NCBI GenBank assembly: GCA_000231825.2
Contig: JH720350.1
Location: 304,760-368,759, forward strand
Origin: Tetrahymena elliotti 4EA
Taxonomy: Eukaryota; Ciliophora; Oligohymenophorea; Hymenostomatida; Tetrahymenidae
DNA length: 64,000 bases
Direction: 5' to 3'
Shown here: positions 4,110-48,240 of the stretch, in pieces
Position numbering within the stretch: position 1 is the stretch's first letter
Layout: each line of letters begins with the position of its first letter
The notes under the pieces: model-generated
Database searches by the model: none
Told to the model about the DNA's origin: nothing
The model's input: only the letters and a program-made list of their open reading frames with translations
Translations under genes and position numbers: made by a program

Positions 4110-7100
4110 TCAAAAATTTTTAGGCAAATTAACATGCTATCTAATTACTGGGGGTCTTTTAGAAGAATTTTAACTTAAAGCCCTCATATTTCTATTTTTT
4201 TATGAATTAGGGAAATTTTAATTATTCGAGGATTAGTTTGATGGATATTGGGTTTGCATCATAGCTTTATTATTTTAATATTATTTAATTGAGTTATTAT
4301 TATTGTTCCATCCAGGAGATGTACTTTCATATAAATTGTTAGTTTAATTAAATTATGGTATATTTCGAGCAAAGTTAGAATATTATGGTTGATCAAATGC
4401 ATAATTTTCCTATTTTTCCATAAAGCTTGTATCTGCTGCATTGTAGCTACTGTTTTGAGTATTTCTATAACCTGTTGAAGGTAATCTTGTATTTGGTTAA
4501 GTAAAGCTAGTATCATTCTTTTAAGAAGAGCTTGTTCTCGTATAAAGTAATTGTTATCTTAAAGAATTTGGTAAAGGTTGAGATTCAGGAGAATGTTCAT
4601 AATTGAAAGAAGATTGTTTCTATCCTTTGATATTATTGTAGTACATGGTATTATTAAATTGATTATTGCTTCCCATTTTTTGCTAATAAAGTGTAGAAAA
4701 TTATTATTAAGTATTTATAAATGAGTTATAGTGTTAGGTATTTTGTGGAGGAGGTGAAAATTCCTCTATTGCATTCATTGATGTCTTAGCTGAGACTCTT
4801 TATCCTAACTGACTTTTCTTTAGTTTAGCAGAAGCTGATTTGAAGTTTTACGTCATGAGATAAGCAGAATTAGCTTATTAGTTTTAAGTTGAAGATGAAG
4901 CTATCATATCTAGGGTTTAATTTAAATGCATTCTAGTTGGCTCTCCATAAAGAGCAGTTGGGTTGAGTCTTGTTTGTAATTCATTATTTTCTAACTCTAA
5001 AGATTTAAGTCTTTAACTTAAGTGTTTTTTTTCTTTCCTTAATTAGTGAATTTCGTTAACAATTTCTTAGCGAGTGACTGTTTAAAAGCCAAAATCACTA
5101 GTAAATGTTTTGTTATTAATTTTTGAAAATCCATTAGCTTCATCAGCAATTATATTATTTACCTCTGGTTCCTCTAAGACTTTCTTATAATCAAATTTAT
5201 TTTTAAGCTCTTTCTCGTTTTCAATATCTTTTGATAATATATTCTCCATAATTTCAATCTTTTCTCTTAAATCACTATTTTCCATCTATAACTAAATATT
5301 TTTAAAAAAGCCAAATAAATAAATATTTAAACACTAAAAATTATGGTATTTTAATATTAATAATCCCTTTTGGAAAATTATGATTAAAATTCATTTTATT
5401 TAAAATTTGAGTAGAAATATTTAAAATTAACAATTGAACTAAAAACAAATAAAGTTGAGTATCAAGTCTATCAGTAAAACCAACATTGAATTTCATTAGT
5501 ATTTTGTGATCAAGACGTTAAATAATTTAAGTTCATTATGAGAATAAAGAATATTTTGATTTATCATCAATATCAAATAGCAATTTAATCAAAAAAAAAA
5601 AAAAGAAATTACTATATTGAGTTCATTTTCTACTTACTCATTATTCTTTGTTAACTTCTCAATCATTTCTCTCATATTTATATTAGATTAGAGTAGATCT
5701 CTCACCATATTTGCACTTTCTACTAATCTTCTTATGATCATCTGAGTTATTAAAATATATTTTTATATAAGGGATATAATTATAAAATTTACATCAGAAC
5801 TCATAAGACCTCCATCGATGCTTAACTCGCTACTCATTTTATTCAAAGACTTTTTCACACTGGATTATAATTGAGATTGATTTACTTAATTATCGTCTGG
5901 CTTTATTTTTTTAGGAGTTTCATCAAATTTCTCTTTTTTTGGAGTTTCGTCTGATCTTTTGGCTTCCTTATCTTTTGATGATGTTTTTGGCTCTTCAAAT
6001 TTAGAGCTTTCTTCTTATATTTGCTATATTGAAGTCTGTTTATTTTTTTACATTTTCAGAATATCTGTTCCATATTTGTTAATATTTTCTGTAGAAAATT
6101 TGCTTAAAAATGCTATGTGCTCATTTGCTCTCGCTAAATCTTTAGTTAATTCTTCTACTTTAGCCTTTCAAAAAAAATATAAATTATTAAAATAATACTT
6201 ATAATTTTTACTTTTAGTTCAGCAATAAGTCTATTTTTAGGATCTTCATTTTTGACTGGTTCATTCGATATTTAACTTGCCTTGGTTGCATAATTAAGTG
6301 TGGACATATTTTCTTCATAATATTAGTCACATGGCGATAAGCAAGCAATCTAAACATTAAGATATTTAATTTATTCATATATAATTTTAAACATAAATTA
6401 CCATAAGACAATAACTATTTCCTCCAATAGATTGCTTAAGTAAAGAAGTTAACTTAGAATCTCTATATGGTACATGAAGCTGCTTCATAGTATTATTTTA
6501 GTTACCTAGCTGATTTTCTTCTAATTACTAAATAGATTAATCTGCTAGTGCTGATATAACCTATCTCAAAGTAAATAAACTTTTGTTAATTTCTATGCAT
6601 TCTTTAAAATTTTATCCTTCTGTTCCTGTTTAGCTTTATCTTTCACTACCAGCCAAATCAACTAAGTGAAGTTTAGCAGAAATTAAATTATCTGGGTCTA
6701 ATCTACTAATAGAGTCCACTTTGATAGTCAGTATACAATGAGATCTGCTGCTCTAAGCATTAAGTTTATGACTAGCCATAATCTTTTATATTTAAATTAT
6801 TATTATAAAAAGATATTAAGTTAAAATTATGATCAATATATTTTGTTTAGTTTTTGCCTTTAAAATTGTCTGTCCATTCACTCACTCATTGATTTGTTTG
6901 CTCATTTTAAAGAGCATTTATGCTTAACGAATAACTTATTTAATATTTTACCTTGTTTTTAATGCCTTTTGTGAGCATTTCATATGCTTCTTGTAAGTTA
7001 GAACATTCGAAGACTAATAAATTTTCAACTTAAAACTAATCTTTTTTGTTCCATCTTAATTTTAAGCCAGGGCCATCATTTTTCTTTAACTAATCTGTAT

Positions 7101-28990: not shown

Positions 28991-29731
28991 TTAATTTCAT
29001 AAAAATTGGAATAATATAAATTTAAAAATATCTGACTTAAGATCGAAAGTTAGAAATGACTCTTTGATATAATTTAGTTAGTTAAGCTTTTATATAAAAA
29101 TAAAAAATTTTAGACAATACTAAATAATAAAAATCTAATAACTTCTTGTAAATCAATTATCTTCATTTTTTTAAATACTATTTTTTTATTCAAAATTAAT
29201 TTTAATCAAAGAAAAAGATAAAATTTAAAAAATTATAGAATTATTTATGTTTTAAATTATTAAATTTTCTTTTTTTAAAACATCAGCTTTCATTATCAAA
29301 ATTATTATTTTAACTTCAATTTTTTTTTTCCAGACATGAAAACTCAATAAAATAGTTTAATTTTAAATTCAAATAAATGAAATTTTTTAAGATACCACAA
29401 AGGTCGTCAAACTAAATTCTAAAACTACATATTTTTAAATAAATTTGCTGAATTTGAATAAATTAAATTTAAAAAAACAAAAAATATTGAAAAATTATTA
29501 AATAAGTAATTCTATTTTCCAATAAAAAATATTTTGTCTGATGGAAACAATAACTTTAATTTATCTATATGTTAATATATTGTTGTTGTTAAAAATATGG
29601 TTTGTATCTGATTATAAATAAAGTTAAGCTTTTATCGTAAATAAAAATTTTATATCAGATATTTGAGATACACATAATTTTTATAATTACGAAAGATACT
29701 TTTTTAGAAATTATAAAAGTAAGAAGAAGAT
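28991..29731. other. Intergenic, nothing recognised
   Basis: A/T-rich spacer between the divergent LRR locus and the rhodanese gene; presumed promoter region for the latter. Confidence 0.45.
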
Positions 29732-31186
29732 ATGAATCCTACTGCAACCATTTTATTAGAAGATAATTTATTTATTTAATAGTTTTAATTCTCTAATCTA
29801 TCTCAGCTTTCTTATTATGTAGAAAGTGAGGGAAAAGCAGCAGTCATCAATCCTATTAGAGATGCTTCCTTTTACTCTTAATTAGCAACATCTAGAACTG
29901 CTTCTATAAAATTTGTTTTATTGACTGAAATTCCATGTGATTATGTTTCAGGACATCTATCCCTTTAAAAATTATTTTAAGCACCTATTTATGTAGGCCC
30001 ACAATCTAATTCTAAATTCCATTGTCATACTTTAAAAGAAGATGAAGCCATTTTACTAGGTGAATATCAATTGAAATAACTTTACACTCCAGGCCATGCT
30101 ATCGAATCAAGCTGCTTTTTACTTTAAAATGTTAGTTAGAACTCTAAAAATGTAGCAATTTTCACAGGAAATACTTTATTATTAGGAGATGCTTGCGGAA
30201 TAAATACAACTTAAGCTAAAACAGTAGAAGATTAAACATATTTAGCTTCTCTATTATATGACTCATTAAAAAACAAAATACTTACCCTTGAAGATAATGT
30301 TTTAATATTTCCTGGCCATACATCTGGATTTAGATTAGCTCCAACAGCTCAAAATGGATTGCAAGATACTTTAAAAAATCAGAAATAAGTAAATAAATCT
30401 TTGTAAGATACAACAAGAGAATAGTTCATTTAGCATGTTTTAAAAATATCTACTGAAGCACCACCTAAAAATTATTATTTTATAAGTGAGATAAACAGAT
30501 AATTAAATCAAGCTGAAGAACTTGAAAGTAAATTGTAATAAGCAAGAAAGCTTCTCAGTATGGAAGAATTTTTAAAATTATAATAAGAAGGGTCAATCAT
30601 ATTAGACTGTAGACCATATGCAGATTTTTTGAATGGATTTATAGAAAAGTCTGTCAATATGACTTTATCTACAAAAATAGAGCTTTGGATATCTATGATC
30701 TTTTCTTGCAAAAGCAATAGCTTTTTAATCATTTGCTAAACAGGTAAAGAAGAAGAAACCTTTGCAAGACTAGCAAGAATTGGGTTAGATTTTACAATAA
30801 AAGGAACTCTATAAGGAGGTATAGATTCCTTTGTTTAGAGTGGTAAAGCTCTTTAAAAAATTCCAAACGTAGATGCTGCCACTTTTAAAAATGAAATTTA
30901 TTAGTAATAAGCACCTTATTCTATGGATGTAAGAGATGAATAAGACTTTACTGGAGGACATCTATAAAATTCTTTAAATGTACCCATATATTAAATGTCA
31001 GAGGCTTTTTCCTCTAATGTTGATCATTTTCCTAAGGATTAACCTGTTTATGTTTTCTGTAATGGTGGAGGCAGAGCTCCTATAGGCTGTTCTCTTTTAA
31101 AAGCCAATGGATATTAAAATGTGGTACATGTGGTTGGAGGTATGTCAAAACTTAAAGAAAATGGAATTTAACTTATCAAATAATGA
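29732..31186 (+). CDS. Persulfide-dioxygenase-like (metallo-beta-lactamase fold) protein with two rhodanese domains; metal site degenerate
   Basis: A single uninterrupted exon of 484 codons. Residues 1 to about 230 follow the ETHE1/blh-type MBL fold: SYYVESEGKAAVINP, YVSGHLSLQKLF, LYTPGHAIESSCFLL, IFTGNTLLLGDACG and VLIFPGHTSG. Active members oxidise glutathione persulfide with one iron bound by a H-x-H-x-D-H type site. Here the expected THFHAD is TEIPCD (residues 65-70), so both His are gone while the Asp stays, and the GDT aspartate is Asn147 (TGNT). His122 of TPGH remains. Two rhodanese domains follow: one around DCRPYADFLNGFIE with Cys in IICQTGKEEE, and one from YSMDVRDEQDFTGGHLQNSL with the loop FCNGGGRAP. 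Both keep the catalytic Cys for sulfur transfer. The gene is probably a sulfurtransferase with a non-catalytic MBL half. Confidence 0.88.
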
Positions 31187-33824: not shown

Positions 33825-34814
33825 TCAAATTATATCATCGATCCAGGGTTTTCTTTCAATCTACTCTAGTGTAAATTTTTTGCCACAGTTTTAAAAAACA
33901 TCATCATCCATATAACCTGGGCATTTGTAAATTCCAGTTTAGATATCAAATCTTAATTTTCCTCCACCACATTCAAGGCACAAAGGTATTTAACCTAGAG
34001 TTTTGCCATCTGCACATTTCAAAACTAACTCATTTTTAGTACCAGTTTTAGGTTAGTTATTAACCCCTAATAAAGATTTGAGATAATCAGCAGTCTTTTT
34101 TTCAAAAAATTCAAGATTTTCCTTAAATTTGATCAATTAATCAGGAGTATAACCCATATTTAATTCAGATTTGCCCTTATTTTTTCCTTTTACTTTTTTT
34201 TTTACTACCTCTTTTTTCTTTTTATTTAAGATAATTTTTTATCTTTCATAATCACTATCACTTCCGGAATTATCAGTTTCTGAATCATCCCCTAAATCAT
34301 CTTCAGTATCTGAATCAAGATCTTCTTCTTCAGATGAAGAGGAGGAAGAAGAATATCTAGGTTTCCTTTTTTTTTATCTAGTTTAAGTAGTTTTCTTTTT
34401 TCCTTTCTATTATTTTTGTTCATTCTATTTTTTCTACTCAGCAGCATCTTAATCATAATCTTTATCATCACTATCATCATCTTATTTCTTTTTTTTCTCA
34501 GAATCTGTGATAGCAGAAATCAATTTATCAACTACAGATTTTTTCTAACCACCACCTTCAAAATAATCAATAACCCTAACTTTATCTTCTTTTTTTAAGT
34601 CATAATAACCTTCAATTTCTTTTGGATCAATATCCTTATATTTTCTTCCTAAACTGAAACAATCCAAATGTCTCCATACAGTTGTTGTATGCTCTCCTTA
34701 AAAAAGAGTCTCTTATCCTATTCTAAGTTCATTTTTTTGTATTTTTAATTTGCACCCTTTGCATCCTGCTCTATTTGTGGTTGCATAGTCAAATCTTAAA
34801 TCTTTTCCACCCAT
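33825..34814 (-). CDS. PARP-type zinc finger plus PADR1 zinc-binding protein
   Basis: A single exon of 329 residues, ATG at 34814, TGA at 33825. Residues 1-85 form a PARP-type zinc finger: MGGKDLRFDYATTNRAGCKG..., with C-x2-C (GCKGC), then WRHLDC supplying His and Cys; this fold binds DNA nicks and breaks in PARP1 and DNA ligase III. A Lys-rich and Ser/Glu/Asp-rich linker follows, with a poly-Ser run. The C-terminal part is a PADR1 zinc ribbon: NMGYTPDQLIKFKENLEFFE, LKCADGKTLGQIPLCLEC, GGGKLRFDIQTGIYKCPGYM and NCGKKF. There is no WGR or catalytic ADP-ribosyl transferase domain, so it cannot make poly(ADP-ribose). It is probably a nuclear DNA-damage or chromatin adaptor. Two damaged copies lie downstream on the same strand. 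Confidence 0.87.
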
Positions 34815-36218
34815 TTTATTTATAAATTGAAAAGTTAAATGATAAAGATTATTTCTAAATAAACTAAATCAAGAAGATAAAAAGAGCGGTCTAATTCAAA
34901 TTAATTCGAAATTTCACACTAAATCTTTTTTACAAAAATTTTCTAGTTCAAACTAAATAGAGAGTGGTTAAAATTTTGAAATAAAAGTTACTCCTTAATT
35001 AAAGAAAGCTTCATGTATCAAAAACTCAATGATTAAAAATTATCCTTTAATTTTTAATTACTTTCAGAAATATCAACATAAAATATTATTTTTAAAACAA
35101 ATTATTTCAATATTCAAACAAATAATTGAAAAAAACAAAAAAAAATGAAGAAAATTACTAGATTAATTAAATTAATGAAATGCAGCAATTAATTTGACGA
35201 AATTCATAAAACCAAATCTAAAATAAGATTAGCCTATTGAAAATTAAAAAATTTTAGATGTTACATAACAAAATCACAAAAATTAAAGACTGGCTTACAA
35301 AAGAATGTCTCTAATTTTCTATTTGGATTGGTATTTTCAAAGATTCTTTAGATTAATAATTATGAAAAATTGAAGATTTATTTAATTTAGGGTTATGTAT
35401 GCAATACATTTATCATTAGTAAAAAGTAAAATTTTTCATTGAACTAAAAAAATTACACATCTAAATACATCTAGTCCCTAAACTATTGACCAAGTGTTAT
35501 TGTAATCTTACAAATGGAATATTTTTAATTTTTTGAGAAATAGCATCAATGACAGCATAAATTATTTAGGTAAATTCCTATTTTAAGAAAATAATAAAGA
35601 AAAATGTGTTTTTTTTTTTTTTTTGAAAAGAGATAAGAAATACAACACAAATAATTAAAAGTTGATTTGAAATTAGGCAAAAGTCAATGAAAAATTACAT
35701 CATTTATAAACACTATTGATTGAATTCTTATAACATAAGTAAGAAAAAAGATGATTTGAAATTTTTTTACAGCCACTGGAAATTTGAATAGAAATTTGTA
35801 TAGATAATTAAAAAATAAATCTTTGGCTGAATGTGAACAAAATAAATGAATGAATGTTAATGAAGGGATATTAAATTATTAATTGATGAAAATTACACAA
35901 TAACCAAAATATTAGATTATTCCTATTTTAAATAATATCAAAACTGGCTTGTATTATTTATTTGTCTGTCGGTCTGCTAGCTTGTATTTGAAAGAAAGTT
36001 TGTCTGCCTTAGAAATAAATATCTAATAATAAATAGATCAAATCATGAATAATTGAATTTTTTTTGTTTTAGAAATCAAATAACAAATTCTGCAATTTAT
36101 TTAATCAAAAAAAATCCCTAAAATAAGATAAAATATTACAAAGTATTAAAGGAAGCGTTAATAGTCGTCTTAATAATAATAATAATAATAAAAGAATATA
36201 ACATTTAAGGAAGGTATT
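34815..36218. other. Intergenic, about 1.4 kb
   Basis: A/T-rich spacer between divergent genes. It has a T16-like run near 35610 and an AAT trinucleotide run (ataataataata) at about 36174-36191 just before the Rab start. No gene seen. Confidence 0.5.
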
Positions 36219-41380: not shown

Positions 41381-42660
41381 ATGAGTAGTTCTAAGAAAAA
41401 CTAGTTTTATAATGAATTCAAGCCTGCTAAGTGTTTAATACATAAAAACTCTAGCCTGAATTAAATATGTGTATAAGATGGATGTATTCTACAATTTTAA
41501 CCTAATTGTGCTCTTTGCTAATATGATTAATAAAGCTCATGCAATTAGCATTTTGTAATGCCCATTCAAACATTGTAATGTCAACTTGAAAGTTTAATAA
41601 AATAAGAAATGATTTTTAATCCTATGAATAATGTATGCCTAGATGAAATCAGTTTGCTTGCAAAATAGTATAGAAATTTAGGAAATAAATGTTTAGAAAT
41701 ATCTGAAAATATAACCATGTCAACGGCTAAGCATAAAAAAACATTAAATAATCTTTCTCCCGAAATAAAGGCTGTAAAAAATATAATATAAAATATTTAA
41801 GAAGATCAATGTGCTCAAAATTAAAAACTAAATTTAATGCAATTGAGTCAATATATTTAAATAAATGAAGATGGAAATCTCAGTTTTTAGTTTCAAAACT
41901 TTGAGAAGTTGTAGAGACTTGAATTGAGATATTGTTAATATTACTAAAAATTGGAATAATTGTATTCTTATATTATTAACGATTTAAATACAGCCCATCA
42001 AAATTCTATCTTCTACACAGGAGTCTAATTTGGTAGCAGTAATAATTAAATAAAATTAACAATTTTAAGTACAAATTCTTTAATATTTCAACATCTTTAA
42101 ATTAATTATTCAAAGTAAAATAATTTCAATAATATTAATTTATTTAAAAAAGACCCTACAAGTGATAAAAAAAGCGATTATTCATCAAACAATATTTTAG
42201 TTGACCAGAAAATTGAAAGTAAACTAAAAAAAATAGCTAAATAAATAACAAAATTTCAAATAATATATTTAAAGGAATGAGAGCTGTTTTGGAAAGCCCT
42301 TAAAAGGTAGGAATGAAAATAACTAATGAGAGCTGCTTTAAGGTTAAAACTATTGAAAAAGGAGATTAAAAAACTTTCCCTTTCTAGAAACAAAAAATCA
42401 AAATAAATTATAAGGTATATGATTAGGATTTCAACATACTGGATTAAAATAAAGAGGGAAATCCTTTTATATTTACACTTGGTATAGGAGAAGTAATAAA
42501 AGGTTGGGAACAAGCTATTCCTGAAATGTGTTTAGGAGAGAAATCATTAATATTATGCCATAAAAATTTAATAAACAACTCAAAATATAATAGCATATTT
42601 AATAATGAATCATCATTCTAATCTCTGTATTTTGAAATAGAAATTGTAGATATCATATGA
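41381..42660 (+). CDS. B-box-like zinc-binding protein with C-terminal FKBP domain
   Basis: A 407-residue protein from two exons, 41381-42218 and 42275-42660, joined in phase (A|GA) over a 56-base GTAAAC...AAAG intron. The N-terminus has a B-box-type Cys/His pattern: CLIHKN...ICVQDGC...CALCQYDQ...CNQHF. Coiled-coil and Gln/Asn-rich sequence follows. The last 110 residues form an FKBP fold: FKVKTIEKGD, KINYKVYDQDFNILD, FIFTLGIGEVIKGWEQAIPE, MCLGEKSLILCHKN and LYFEIEIVDII. The V-I-x-x-W pocket (EVIKGW) is kept, but the aromatic and Asp residues of the usual YTGxLxDGxxFD strand are changed, so prolyl isomerase activity is doubtful. A B-box joined to FKBP is an architecture I do not recognise. 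Two neighbours share the same type of head. Confidence 0.82.
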
Positions 42661-42803: not shown

Positions 42804-44104
42804 TCACTAATATCTTCTTAATTCTTGCATAACTCCTTCCATTTCTAAATTAAGTTTCTTTCCATCTGGGCACTTTACAATAATAAATCATCATAAAATA
42901 TTACTTTCTGCTAAATGACTAAATTACATCCTTTATTTTTAATAAATAATTCATTTTAGCTTTAAAAGTATTTATTAATATAAAGCTTACTGTCTTTATT
43001 TATTGGTGTGAATTAATTTAATACTAAATACTGCTTAAATGAACTTACTCTCTTTTATATACAATAATCTATTTAAAGCTAATCACTCTAAATTTTAATT
43101 TACTTCCTGTTAATTAATAATAAAAACAAATTTTAATTTAGAATGAATAAAAAATAAAAAATTACTTTCTAATTTTAAGGTCAAATAAAAAATATTTGAA
43201 ACCATGAATATCATATGAGATCAAAAATAACTTACGAACCACTTTATAGATAATTAAATTAATTTAATTATTATTTTAAAAACGATAATGCTTTACCAAC
43301 TATTAATTTTAATAAAAATTGTTTAATATTTAAAATCAAAATAATTTATTTTACTGTCTGTTTTATTAGTTCAAGTTTAAATTAATATAAGTTAAATGCC
43401 ATACTAAATTCCAATTTTACCTTCTATTTACAATAAAATTTTGTTAATATTAAAAATTAAATAATTAAAATAAAATTTTACCCACTGAATGGTTGTTTAT
43501 GAACAAAAAACAATTAATTTATTTTGAAAATATTCAATTTTTACATACTACAATTTAAAAATAATTTAAGATACTTTTCTATTTTAAAATAAAGCTTACT
43601 TTGATCTATTTTTAATAATGATTTATTTAAATAAATATTTAAAATTAAAAAATAACTTACTTTCTTATTAATTAGATAGAATAGAAAAAGGTGTTTAATT
43701 AAGTTGATTTTCTATTAATATTTTATTTTACATACTTTTTTATTTAAAAAAGATCTTTAGAACTTTCTAAAATAGTTTTTAATCAATTTACTGGCTGTTT
43801 GTAGATAAGTGTTCAATATATTTTTGTCATCATAACACGTTGATTGATTTATTGATTTCAAGTTAAAATAAATATTAGTTTTAAGTTTATTGAATAATTA
43901 ATAAATCTGTTTTTTAAATCTAAAAGAATTACGATCTATTTATTTTAATAATATTTCATTCATTATTTTTACAATCACATTTAAACTTACATCAACGAAG
44001 CTGCAATGTTTGTTGTCACACTATTTGTTAATAATTAAATATATTTTAATTTATCTAAGTGAATTTAAATGCTATTTTACCATATCATCAACATGCTTAT
44101 CCAT
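42804..44104 (-). CDS. Microexon gene: 58-residue protein split over about 19 exons, fourteen of them only 3 bases
   Basis: Exon 1 (44104-44081) is ATG GAT AAG CAT GTT GAT GAT ATG. Exon 2 (44020-43991) codes CDNKHCSFVD. Sixteen blocks of the form AG|NNN|GTAA or AG|NNNNNN|GTAA follow: ATC 43935-43933, CCA 43794-43792, TAT 43734-43732, AAA 43663-43661, ATCAAA 43605-43600, TAT 43547-43545, TGG 43484-43482, AAG 43423-43421, ACA 43357-43355, TTG 43299-43297, TGGTTC 43241-43236, AAA 43168-43166, GAA 43106-43104, AGA 43051-43049, ACA 42993-42991, GAT 42930-42928. The last exon, 42872-42804, codes CPDGKKLNLEMEGVMQELRR and ends at TGA. Every exon is a multiple of three in phase 0. Seventeen of the 18 introns are 52-68 bases, starting GTAA and ending AG; one (43932-43795) is 138 and may hide more. 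Chance would give well under one such block per kb. The joined protein has no recognised family (C-x4-C near the start, a third Cys at residue 37). Confidence 0.72.
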
Positions 44105-44168: not shown

Positions 44169-45218
44169 TCATTAATGAATGGTTACATCTCTTTGCTTTT
44201 CTAATTCTTTCTTTCCTATTTTAATCGTTGAAAACAAAATAGTTAAAATGCTTAGAAAGATTAAAAGTAAAATATTGATTACTTTCTTCTTTCTTTTACA
44301 ATCTTTGTTACATTTGATTCTTGCTGAAACTCTTTGAATACTCAAACTACTATTATGGAGTATAATCTATTGTAAATTAAAAATATTTAAGTTACATTTG
44401 CTTTTATTTAAAGATATATCCAATTGTTTTTTAATTTTGAATAGAATTATTATTAAAGCTGTTGCTGCTACTCCTAAAGGATATGTAATAAGATTTTAAA
44501 TTCATAAATTACCTCCTTTCTCACTTACAATATCTTCTGAATCATACTCAAGGAAAAATTGCTACATACTAACATCGAGGTAACTTCTTACTTCATCAAG
44601 AGTTTTCAATGGTGCCTACATATTTTTTATAAAGAGCTGAGTCTTTTATTGACCATCTCTTAAGGCGGTTAATGAAACTGCATCATTAACTTTCAACAAA
44701 CCATCTTCATCAACCCTAGTATATTGTCTGAGATCATCTACATTCTTTCTAAGAATAACTTCACTTTCATTGCTTTTAAAGATTTCTCTTAAAAGCTTTC
44801 TAATAGCTACACGCTCATAAGGCTCTTTGCGAACAAGAGAGCGATATTTTTCTAAATTGAGATTAATGTGCTCAATCATTTAATTGCATTTTTCAACTGT
44901 AGCAGCTAATTCATTTGCAATATTCTTTAAATCTCTTTCAATATCATCTTCTCCACTTTATTACTTTTCAAAGTCTAATTATTTCTCTTCCAAATCTTTA
45001 ATAAGCTCTCCAAAAATGAGCTTAACAGGCTTGATATCATGCTTATTCTTCTTATGATTGATGAATTTACAAAACGCACAAACGGGAACAAGCTAAGTTG
45101 AGCAGCCGTCTTCCATACAAAATTCACTTAACTAATGGTCACCATGATGAGCTTCTTAAGTACAATTTGGTAATTTGTATGCTCCAAGACTTTCAATCAA
45201 ACCCTAATTCTTTAACAT
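44169..45218 (-). CDS. B-box-like zinc-binding protein with coiled coil and C-terminal membrane segment
   Basis: A 336-residue protein from exons 45218-44513 and 44473-44169. The head CTQEAHHGDHQLSEFCMEDG...CAFCKFINHKKNKHDIKPV has the B-box Cys/His spacing. A long helical region follows (DIERDLKNIANELAATVEKC; RKLLREIFKSNESEVILRKN), then EVRSYLDVSMQQFFLEYDSE. Exon 2 adds two hydrophobic stretches (ATALIIILF; VINILLLIFLSILTILF) and a short Lys-rich tail, suggesting a membrane anchor. The linking intron is only 39 bases; read without it, the protein would stop 5 codons later at TGA without the hydrophobic part. Its ATG is the first after an in-frame TGA. The microexon gene starts 65 bases downstream on the same strand. 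Confidence 0.75.
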
Positions 45219-45640
45219 TCTTTTAGTTCTTACTACTTATGCTTTAAACCTATTATGTAATATTCGTTTAATATCTCAATTGTGCTTTTTCAATTAATTT
45301 GTATATATTTTTTATCAAAAATTAATAAAATTCCTTACTATTTATTTAATAATAAAATTCAACCTTTTTATCAATTCAAAATGTAGGTTTTACTTTAATT
45401 TGTCTAAGCAGCTGAATGCAACACTATTAGTTAGTTAGTTATTCATATTCTTTTAAGAATAAAAAAAACCATAACATTTTACATCAATAATTAAAACTGC
45501 AATCAAAAAGTAAATAAGTTAATTAAAATATTTTTTAAAGAACTAAAATAAATCAAAAACTTTGTTTTACGTTGTTTCATTTTTTTAATTCAAAAAATTG
45601 AAAATGATGAAAAAAATTTTATTAAAAACTAAAAAATGGC
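45219..45640. other. Intergenic, presumed promoter of the B-box membrane gene
   Basis: About 420 A/T-rich bases with the Pol III terminator of the tRNA at the right end; nothing else recognised. Confidence 0.5.
45632..45637 (-). terminator. T6 run ending the tRNA-Arg gene
   Basis: The minus strand reads six T three bases after the tRNA 3' end, a Pol III terminator; a second T5 follows a few bases later. Confidence 0.8.
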
Positions 45641-45712
45641 AACCAAGGTGGGACTCGAACCCACAACCTTCAGATTAGAAGTCTGCTGCGCTACCATTGC
45701 GCCACTCGGCTT
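45641..45712 (-). tRNA. tRNA-Arg, anticodon UCU
   Basis: A 72-nt cloverleaf without intron. Acceptor AGCCGAG pairs with CTTGGTT (G:U pairs allowed), discriminator G. The D arm is GCGC-AATGGTA-GCGC. The anticodon loop CTTCTAA gives TCT, decoding AGA, the dominant Arg codon here. The T arm is GTGGG-TTCGAGT-CCCAC. The A box TGGCGCAATGG and B box GGTTCGAGTCC are intact. The first pair of the anticodon stem (27:43) is a G-A mismatch. CCA is not encoded, as usual in eukaryotes. Confidence 0.97.
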
Positions 45713-46010
45713 TTACAATAATTGAATGATTATTAGTCAATTAGTTTCTATTTTTTGATGATTGAGAAAAAAGAATTCTTAAAATTTTTCTTTTAAAATA
45801 ATTTTTTTAGACAACAAAAAATGACAGAATATAAAAATTTATTATAAATTTTAAAACATTGCAAAAAATAGATTAATATACATTTTAAAGTGATTAATAT
45901 ATTAGATGATACTATCTGATTAATATTTAATAATATAAATATATATATATATAAGTTTTCTGATCATTAAATAGCTTATTTTAATACTAAATAGCACATT
46001 TATTTATCAA

Positions 46011-48240
46011 ATGAATTGCTTATAATGCAACAATCATAACCTTGGTTTAGATAGAATTAATGTTTGTTTGGATTAATCTTGCTAGTAGAATATATTTTGC
46101 TAAGAATGCTGCACAAAGCATCCATCATTTCATCAAAAACCAGTATAATTAAAGAAATTTCTAAGTAAATTGTAGAATAAACTACCTGATGAACAAGTTC
46201 TTTAAGGTATTAACTCTTCTAAAGTTGTATCTGAATTAGAAAATAACTTTCAAAGAAGTAATAAGTTATTTAAACAACTAAAAGAAAGCGTAATTCGCTA
46301 AATAGACATTTTAGTAAATCAAACAACACAACTTTACGAGCATCTACACAAGCAATACTAATAAACACATTCTAAAATAGTCAAACTGAATTCTTAAAGA
46401 AATTTAATTGAAAAAATATCTAAATAATTGAATATGGAATCTTTAAAAAGACTGATAGAAGAATTCACCATTTAATATCCTGCCCTAACAACAAAAGATG
46501 CTGATTAAAACATAGAAGGAAGTAAGGGATTTAACTCACTTAGTTCCTCAATAATAAGAAACTCTTAATTAATTACATATAAATTACCAAAATAAAAAAA
46601 CAATTTTGATTAAATTAATTAAGTAAACGCTAATACCTATCTTAAATTTGAAAACATTCACAAAGAAGTCATAGCATTTAATGACTTTTCATAATAGATT
46701 CTAGAAAAGGAATTGGATAAATCTTCTTAAACTTTATATGAAAGCTTTGAAAACATCAAGAAATTTTTAACTGTTTGTTCACAGTCAACATACAAGGCAA
46801 AAGGGGCTTCAAATAAATTCTTAGATACTTTATAACCTCTTTTTTAAAAAGAAGATTAAATCATCTGCCATAAAAACAACATGCCTGTTCAAGCAATAGT
46901 TGTAAATGCCAAACAAAATCAAATAATTACAGCTTCATATGATTGTAATATAATTGTAAGAGATATTCATAATTTGGCAGAATTACAAACATTAAAAGCT
47001 CATACTTAATGGATCCGTTCATTAGCGATACAAGAATATTCAATAAATAATTGCTTTCAATACTCTAAAAGTGTCCTAATATCTTGTGGGGATGATAAAT
47101 TAGTTTAGTCTTGGGCTTTAAATTAATCTACATCTCCTTCTTATCTTTTACTCAATCAAAATGAATCCATTAACTAAAACCAAATAAATTCAAATTAAAA
47201 TGTCCTAAAACAACTTCCATTTTAGCTAAATGTAAAAGCATGCCTCCTTTGTATGATTTCAATAAATTAAGTGGCAGTTTGCACAGGACCAATTGATTAT
47301 TTTAGAATCTTTATCTATGATGTTACAACATCTCAATGCTTAAAGTAAATATTTGAATTAAAAACTAAACTAGCAATTAAATTTGATAGAAAAATATATG
47401 AAAATTTATTACAAACATAATATAATTTGTCTGTAAAAATAAGCTTGATGGCCAAACTAAAATTATAAATTGATGTAGTTTTAATTTTTTTGTCTAAGTC
47501 ATCATGCAAAAATGTCCCCAAAAAGTTCATTTAAATTGAGAAAACTTGAAATTATGAATTTTTTTAAAGTATTTTCAAGATACTTTAGGCAAATAATGCC
47601 AACAATAACATGGATTAATTTAAATTATATATTTACATAAATTTTTTAATTTTTGTGAAAAATTGAACTGTTTTTGTTCATTTAATTAAATATTTTAATA
47701 GTTTTTTAATGCTTGATTTATAAAACAAATAGGGTTTTAGCTGGAAATAGAAAGTATATCAGAAGTGTTATACATTTAGAAGATAAGAATTATTTATGCT
47801 CAGGAAGCGATGATGGTATAATTGGAGTATGGAATTTGAACGATAATAAAACTGAAAAATTTAAATATAGATTAAGTGCTTCTCTATCTCCAATACAATC
47901 TCTTATTTATGAAGAAAAAAATAATCTTATTTGTGCAGGCTGCTAAGATGGTAAAATACTGATGTACTCTATTTAGTAAGCCCCAAAGCTTTTAAAGATT
48001 ATATAAAGTAGTACCTGTACATCTGTTAGTACATTATGTAAATTAAATAAAAATTATTTTGTGGCAGCTGTAGGTAAAAACATTCTTGTTTACTTATTCC
48101 AAAATGGGTAGCTAGTAAATAGCATAAATAATAAAAATAGTAACAATATTTCAGTAATAACTTATTGTTCTTAAAATTAAAAGCTATTAGTTGGAGATGT
48201 TAGGGGTTAGCTATCAGCTTATTCTGTTCTTATTATCTGA
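46011..48240 (+). CDS. B-box-like zinc-binding protein with coiled coil and WD40 repeats
   Basis: A 613-residue protein, exons 46011-47344 and 47733-48240, joined in phase (AA|G) over a 388-base intron. Residues 3-45 carry the zinc-binding head: CLQCNNHNLGLDRINVC...C...FCQECCTKHPSFHQ. Coiled coil follows (ENNFQRSNKLFKQLKESVIR; HSKIVKLNSQRNLIEKISKQ). The C-terminal half has WD40 strands: AIVVNAKQNQIITASYDCNI, LKAHTQWIRSLAIQ, LISCGDDKLVQSWAL, then after the intron NRKYIRSVIHLEDKNYLCSG, SDDGIIGVWNL, NLICAGCQDGKILMYS and LLVGDVRGQLSAYSV. The blades probably form a propeller for protein binding. It has the same RBCC-like order as TRIM proteins but no RING finger. It is the third B-box-head gene of this cluster. 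Confidence 0.85.

Follow-up and report, generated by a model that had tools for sequence, protein, structure and literature searches.

The minus strand of a 64,000-nucleotide stretch of Tetrahymena elliotti DNA (the window, meaning the whole stretch that was analysed) carries, between positions 43935 and 42928, 16 consecutive blocks flanked as AG-N3-GTAA or AG-N6-GTAA, and this array raises the question of whether blocks of one or two codons are exons, which protein they would belong to and how they could be joined. Fourteen of the blocks are 3 bases long and two are 6 bases long, all are in phase 0, and in the order of the minus strand they read ATC, CCA, TAT, AAA, ATCAAA, TAT, TGG, AAG, ACA, TTG, TGGTTC, AAA, GAA, AGA, ACA, and GAT. 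A sequence-only reading of the window had listed these 16 blocks, which the block scan bore out, and had interpreted them as an undescribed system in which single-codon exons join into an open phase-0 frame and build one small protein of 58 codons, starting at ATG 44104.

Scanning the interval 42873-43990 yielded 15 N3 and three N6 blocks, and of the remaining spacer lengths between 0 and 12 bases none occurred more than once. Sixteen of these 18 candidate blocks were used in the model. The other two, which overlap (CAGAAA at 42910-42905 and AAA at 42907-42905), were rejected as exons: they lie inside the last intron, of 55 bases, and would require an intron of 17-20 bases. The excess over chance that had been claimed earlier (about 14 AG-N3-GTAA motifs present and about 0.3 expected) was upheld by the recount, which gave 15 motifs against approximately 0.35-0.52 expected by chance in 1.3 kb. 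On the minus strand of the window the motif is found 39 times, 15 of these in the array, and the 18 occurrences on the plus strand include none within the array region. First-order Markov resampling of the region (2000 trials) produced a mean of 0.52 motifs, a maximum of four, and a longest chain of two. The observed chain comprises 15 blocks at intervals of 48-75 bases, and 16 once an interval of 138 bases is admitted. The longest chain of 3- or 6-base blocks was two in 30 resamples of the window, and it was also two over 74 strands from elsewhere in this genome (37 stretches totalling 287,387 bases; some of the stretches overlap, and eight were fetched for holding one such motif). When the block limit was raised to 24 bases in these stretches, the longest chain was of three blocks, on three of the 74 strands. 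Under looser settings (blocks of at most 12 bases, GTAA or GTAT as donors, and intervals of 40-80 bases), a single chain of five blocks was detected on the plus strand of the window (4425-4725), together with chains of three in loci L007, L017, and L033. These chains were taken as chance products because of the looser donors and block lengths used; by eye, the five-block chain lies opposite an apparent coding frame.

The frame was then compared with relatives, using as query the 58-residue peptide joined from the blocks, which had been fixed before any relative was known. This search retrieved P0001, P0002, and P0003 over the full length of the peptide (E 5e-23 to 3e-20) and P0004 over 41%, and a second search with an alignment retrieved eight proteins, four of them new (P0005-P0008). 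The 18 residues encoded by the array, IPYKIKYWKTLWFKERTD, matched at 15 positions in P0002, at 14 in P0003, P0005, and P0007, and at 13 in P0001, P0006, and P0008. P0004 ends inside the array segment, and 13 of its 14 covered positions agree. As a random control, 100,000 draws from local triplets reached at best seven of 18 matches, a figure to be read knowing that the relatives themselves were found via queries containing the array. The exons flanking the array match the same relatives on both sides of the segment. Within the array, the residues Y, E, and R are matched in none of the seven spanning relatives, and I corresponds to V in four of the seven. P0001-P0008 were compared as proteins, whose letters read the same for a transcript as for an unbroken gene. 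A full-length search added P0011 (source 'eukprot', with a TRINITY name), a 393-aa protein with 43% identity over 98% of the query, which carries the array segment unbroken as IPYKIKWWKTLWFKQNTE and shares 14 of the 18 array positions by hand count on the alignment. From Trinity and EukProt we take P0011 to be assembled RNA, and its first residues resemble adapter sequence. The relatives found were one Tetrahymena protein, this transcript-named protein, and further database proteins; a spliced array was not found among the protein matches named Tetrahymena, where P0009 was the sole named orthologue, and collections of phages, plasmids, viruses, and prokaryotes yielded no relative.

Because the joined blocks closely match a segment that is unbroken in relatives, they are likely to be real exons, and the earlier claim of single-codon exons joining into an open phase-0 frame is strongly supported by this comparison. 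Very probably, the 16 blocks are coding exons that the spliceosome joins into the core of a conserved C-terminal domain, as part of a gene predicted to have 22 exons; we infer from the relatives that they are present in the mRNA of this species. The predicted gene runs on the minus strand from ATG 45218 to TGA 42804 and encodes 336 residues, with TAA and TAG translated as glutamine:

44513..45218, minus strand, exon 1, 706 nt: ATG, cysteine/histidine-rich B-box-like region and predicted helices; T. malaccensis P0009 shares the start
44283..44366, minus strand, exon 2, 84 nt: preceded by a 146-nt intron; P0009 is contiguous over the join
44187..44215, minus strand, exon 3, 29 nt: gene model and P0009
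44081..44119, minus strand, exon 4, 39 nt: gene model and P0009; holds the internal ATG at 44104
43991..44020, minus strand, exon 5, 30 nt: CDNKHCSFVD; relatives
43933..43935, minus strand, microexon 1, ATC (I): four of the seven relatives have V
43792..43794, minus strand, microexon 2, CCA (P): preceded by the 138-nt intron; relatives
43732..43734, minus strand, microexon 3, TAT (Y): block scan and relatives
43661..43663, minus strand, microexon 4, AAA (K): block scan and relatives
43600..43605, minus strand, microexon 5, ATCAAA (IK): block scan and relatives
43545..43547, minus strand, microexon 6, TAT (Y): relatives have W, H, or F
43482..43484, minus strand, microexon 7, TGG (W): block scan and relatives
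43421..43423, minus strand, microexon 8, AAG (K): block scan and relatives
43355..43357, minus strand, microexon 9, ACA (T): block scan and relatives
43297..43299, minus strand, microexon 10, TTG (L): block scan and relatives
43236..43241, minus strand, microexon 11, TGGTTC (WF): block scan and relatives
43166..43168, minus strand, microexon 12, AAA (K): block scan and relatives
43104..43106, minus strand, microexon 13, GAA (E): relatives vary here
43049..43051, minus strand, microexon 14, AGA (R): relatives vary here
42991..42993, minus strand, microexon 15, ACA (T): block scan and relatives
42928..42930, minus strand, microexon 16, GAT (D): the sole microexon seemingly present in the T. malaccensis gene model
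42804..42872, minus strand, last exon, 69 nt: CPDGKKLNLEMEGVMQELRRYQ, then the TGA stop; P0009 agrees at 22 of 22 positions
42873..43990, minus strand, 17 predicted introns around the 16 microexons: 16 of 52-68 nt and one of 138 nt

In this model the array encodes the middle of the C-terminal domain, and the small 58-codon protein claimed earlier gives way to a much longer product in which the array lies in the C-terminal part. The start at ATG 44104 was dropped because relatives continue upstream of it (P0006, P0009, and a distant relative in the same genome on contig C42), so that this ATG would encode an internal methionine. An intermediate model starting at 44397 was given up in favour of a 146-nt intron linking the gene to the reading frame upstream, a join supported by P0009.

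The N-terminal cysteine/histidine-rich stretch scored 12.8 bits against the B-box zinc-finger (PF00643), below the Pfam cut-off of 24.1, and the relatives P0009, P0010, and P0011 also remained below it (12.3, 10.5, and 16.7 bits, respectively). By the Pfam cut-off the stretch is described as B-box-like only. Helices were predicted after this stretch with low confidence in the structure prediction of P0011, and the structure predictions overall were of low confidence (mean pLDDT 63 and 56). Comparison of the C-terminal domain by sequence with Pfam, NCBIfam, and PDB gave no match at the cut-off and no E-value below 0.16, and a PDB fold search with the first structure model gave no match. In the same genome, the distant relative of the C-terminal region on contig C42 shows 37% identity (E 1.5e-4); it lies at positions 1465-1713 of stretch L015 and in stretch L036 (contig C42:726001-726210), is unbroken, and lacks six of the 18 array positions. 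The frames preceding it in the locus appear cysteine-rich and helical by eye. Among the best candidates of protein searches with the joined sequence there was no other related gene bearing an array, and at the loci of three weak matches to exon 1 in the genome no chain of 3- or 6-base blocks longer than two was found.

All 21 predicted introns of the gene start with GTAA and end with AG; at the 17 array introns this is partly so by construction, because the blocks were chosen by those letters. The array introns contain 84.5% A+T, compared with 70.4% in the microexons and 68.5% in the whole coding sequence. The range of 52-68 bases proposed previously for these introns was right for 16 of the 17 but not for the one of 138 bases. 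Their median length of 57 nt agrees with the published length of Tetrahymena introns (mode 56, component mean 55.2, SD 4.6; PMC5014332, excerpt). The 138-base intron (43932-43795, minus strand) is about twice as long as the others and may be a merged intron, and relatives have no residue missing at this place. Pairwise comparison of the array introns (16 of the 17, the 138-nt one being excluded) gave a mean score of 5.77 versus 4.84 for shuffles (SD 0.38); this mean was reached by one of 200 shuffles, and the best pair was no better than in shuffles (reached in 47%). A recent burst of intron copying was not evident from these scores, and a weak overall likeness remains, which shared splice signals may explain.

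The consequences of imperfect splicing were read from the model. Retention of a single intron would lead to an early TGA for seven of the 21 introns and to a frame shift without a stop in the joined sequence for 10 more, and it would keep the frame without a stop for four (introns 4, 11, 13, and 20); thus splicing errors would mostly change the protein, and only a third of them would be flagged by an early stop. Skipping one microexon loses one or two residues and keeps the frame. These properties bear on the idea that the array is put to use, either because retention or slow removal of introns gates the output of the gene or because skipping of symmetrical exons yields variants differing by one or two residues. 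Any one microexon could be skipped without frame loss, since all are multiples of three in phase 0, single-intron retention interrupts or shifts the frame at 17 introns, and flatworm micro-exon genes produce variants of this kind (PMC7653826, excerpt). On the other hand, with only seven early stops and four frames kept without a stop among the 21 retentions the introns are not uniformly tuned against faulty mRNA, skipping would remove conserved positions, and in the available part of a T. thermophila study cassette-exon events were outnumbered almost sixfold by intron retention (PMC3274533). We therefore regard a use of the array as unlikely, if still worth keeping in mind; most likely it has no function beyond being tolerated.

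The counterpart in Tetrahymena malaccensis, P0009 (hypothetical protein ABPG74_021246, found by the full-length protein search), is approximately 96% identical over these exons: 275 of 286 residues agree for exons 1-4, and 22 of 22 for the last exon. The comparison suggests that the genome of the window is close to that of T. malaccensis. It has 24 extra residues at the position of intron 4, and at the position of the array it has 22 residues, consisting of D and a stretch starting with V, the array residues being otherwise absent. The P0009 model seems to retain both intron 4 and the last intron and to pass straight from exon 5 to the final microexon (GAT). On this reading, T. malaccensis would have that microexon and those two introns at the same places, and the annotation would appear to miss 15 microexons and likely to need correction. 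By eye, the two introns seemingly kept in P0009 look diverged and the exons hardly changed, and the gene model looks like an automatic annotation rather than an RNA-based one. This suggests that gene models in Tetrahymena can lose conserved domains, the T. malaccensis one appearing to be wrong.

Taken at face value, an annotated protein without array residues save an apparent last D would favour a mature mRNA from which the array is left out, with exon 5 joined to the last microexon or to the last exon and the blocks persisting as relics. We consider this highly improbable: each of the seven spanning relatives keeps 13-15 of the 18 array residues, all 16 blocks are in phase 0 with intact splice letters on either side, where relics would drift, and the model that would speak for it seemingly retains two introns and looks automatic. 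Ciliates remove internal DNA when making the somatic nucleus, and the intervening pieces could accordingly be germline-limited DNA eliminated in nuclear development instead of introns; nevertheless, the intervals have GTAA and AG ends and the length of Tetrahymena introns, and the T. malaccensis model seems to include two of them in the gene, which leaves this proposal exceedingly improbable. A chance arrangement in AT-rich DNA can be dismissed with near certainty, for although short motifs are common in such sequence (the two strands of the window together contain 57 AG-N3-GTAA) and looser scanning finds one five-block chain and chains of three at three loci, resampled chains of 3- or 6-base blocks never exceeded two and the joined frame matches unbroken relatives.

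If the blocks are exons, as we favour, their splicing would have to rely on recognition of the introns, since an exon of 3 bases can hardly accommodate a signal. Under such intron definition, the GTAA and the AG of each short AT-rich intron (about 57 bases long) would be paired with one another, leaving exon sequence unused. This mode has been proposed for T. thermophila (PMC3274533, excerpt), and the earlier suggestion that introns rather than exons are recognised fits published Tetrahymena splicing in the parts available (PMC3274533, PMC5014332). Because each acceptor and the next donor are only 3-6 bases apart, adjacent introns would very likely never both be held by spliceosomes, and the 17 introns would leave in at least two waves or successively; the frame test carries no information on this order. 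A comparable stepwise argument has been published for a 1-nt exon of Arabidopsis (PMC4674806, excerpt). Each removal would add a codon to the growing exon and leave the next donor usable, acting as a ratchet that keeps the codon. On balance we favour the complete proposal, in which almost all codons of a conserved protein core have each become a separate exon and splicing proceeds codon by codon through such a ratchet, using no exon information. In this array 17 predicted introns bound and divide 54 coding bases.

As for the origin, introns were most likely inserted repeatedly at consecutive codon boundaries of a once-unbroken segment. Repeated gain is the simplest reading, its direction being based on one distant relative (the C42 copy, with six array positions missing) and on relatives known from protein; the unbroken copy could also have arisen by a single cDNA-mediated loss in a relative.

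Several known systems resemble the array in part, and the earlier designation as an undescribed system was too strong, since both microexons as small as 1-6 bases and series of small symmetrical exons have been described. The micro-exon genes (MEGs) of schistosomes and tapeworms also have long runs of small exons divisible by three, skippable in frame, and are likewise difficult for gene finders and read mappers (PMC7653826, excerpt). Their structural definition, in the available part of that paper, comprises at least seven exons, of which at least half are shorter than 70 nt and divisible by three (PMC7653826); the array gene has 22 predicted exons, 19 of which qualify (39, 30, sixteen of 3 or 6, and 69 nt) and are consecutive in the predicted structure. 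By predicted structure the array gene fits the MEG definition, which does not imply kinship with flatworm MEGs. It differs from them in lineage, in that most of the residues coded by the array are conserved between relatives, and in that micro-exons of MEGs are counted up to 69 nt whereas the array has sixteen successive exons of 3 or 6 nt (PMC7653826, excerpt). The blocks are also short enough to count as microexons (upper limit 15-30 nt, with splice sites on either side), here by predicted sites; their presence in mature mRNA is indicated at most indirectly, by the unbroken relatives, one of which bears a transcript name.

The 1-nt exon of Arabidopsis APC11 is similarly below the size for exon definition, and intron definition with stepwise removal has been proposed for it (PMC4674806, excerpt). 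Other plant microexons, too, have been overlooked by annotation, and a peptidase gene has two adjacent ones, of 5 and 12 nt (PMC8831610, PMC11096116, excerpts). In the available parts of these papers the plant cases have one or two microexons per gene, unlike the sixteen consecutive ones of the array (PMC4674806, PMC8831610, PMC11096116). Ratchet points of recursive splicing resemble the array in having an acceptor beside a donor, one removal readying the next, but they split long introns and keep no codon, whereas the array has short introns and keeps 3-6 bases. At a ratchet point acceptor and donor are joined with no exon between them; in the array the 3-6 intervening bases match conserved residues. 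The LRR genes of Tetrahymena contain arrays of 90-bp exons with an extreme phase bias (PMC6564038, excerpt); these are repeated units in phase 2 attributed to clonal exon expansion (PMC6564038, excerpt), and the array microexons, in contrast, are not repeats of each other. In the open-access literature apart from preprints, none of the matches listed showed successive 3-nt exons in any ciliate, nor was a run of sixteen 3- or 6-base exons found described in the parts of the sources available. Among microexon genes as known so far, the array represents an extreme new variant.

If the model is true, no coding stretch known to us is cut as finely as the array, which would offer a natural test of the minimum exon size and of whether neighbouring introns have to leave in order. 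Such an array would mean that there is practically no minimum length for an exon, even in a long series, and that introns can accumulate at successive codon boundaries until the coding sequence is shorter than the surrounding signals. The gene would also be a test case for intron gain. With most array codons conserved, all 17 introns would as a rule need to be spliced correctly, placing a strong demand on splicing fidelity in a cell that works by intron definition.

The array gene is convergent with a frame for an FKBP-type prolyl isomerase (window 42277-42660, plus strand; PF00254, E 8e-14), the two stop codons being about 140 bases apart. About 420 bases upstream of the gene start, on the same strand, there is a tRNA-Arg (TCT) gene (45637-45711, minus strand). 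The frames 41381-42280 and 45996-47546 (both plus strand) beside the array gene have cysteine-rich starts by eye, and the latter shows a WD40 match barely above the Pfam cut-off. Elsewhere in the window, the frame 29612-31183 (plus strand) matches solved proteins with a metallo-beta-lactamase fold plus a rhodanese domain (best E 1e-34), and 33828-34868 (minus strand) combines zf-PARP and a PADR1 zinc ribbon in a single frame, both above the Pfam cut-offs.
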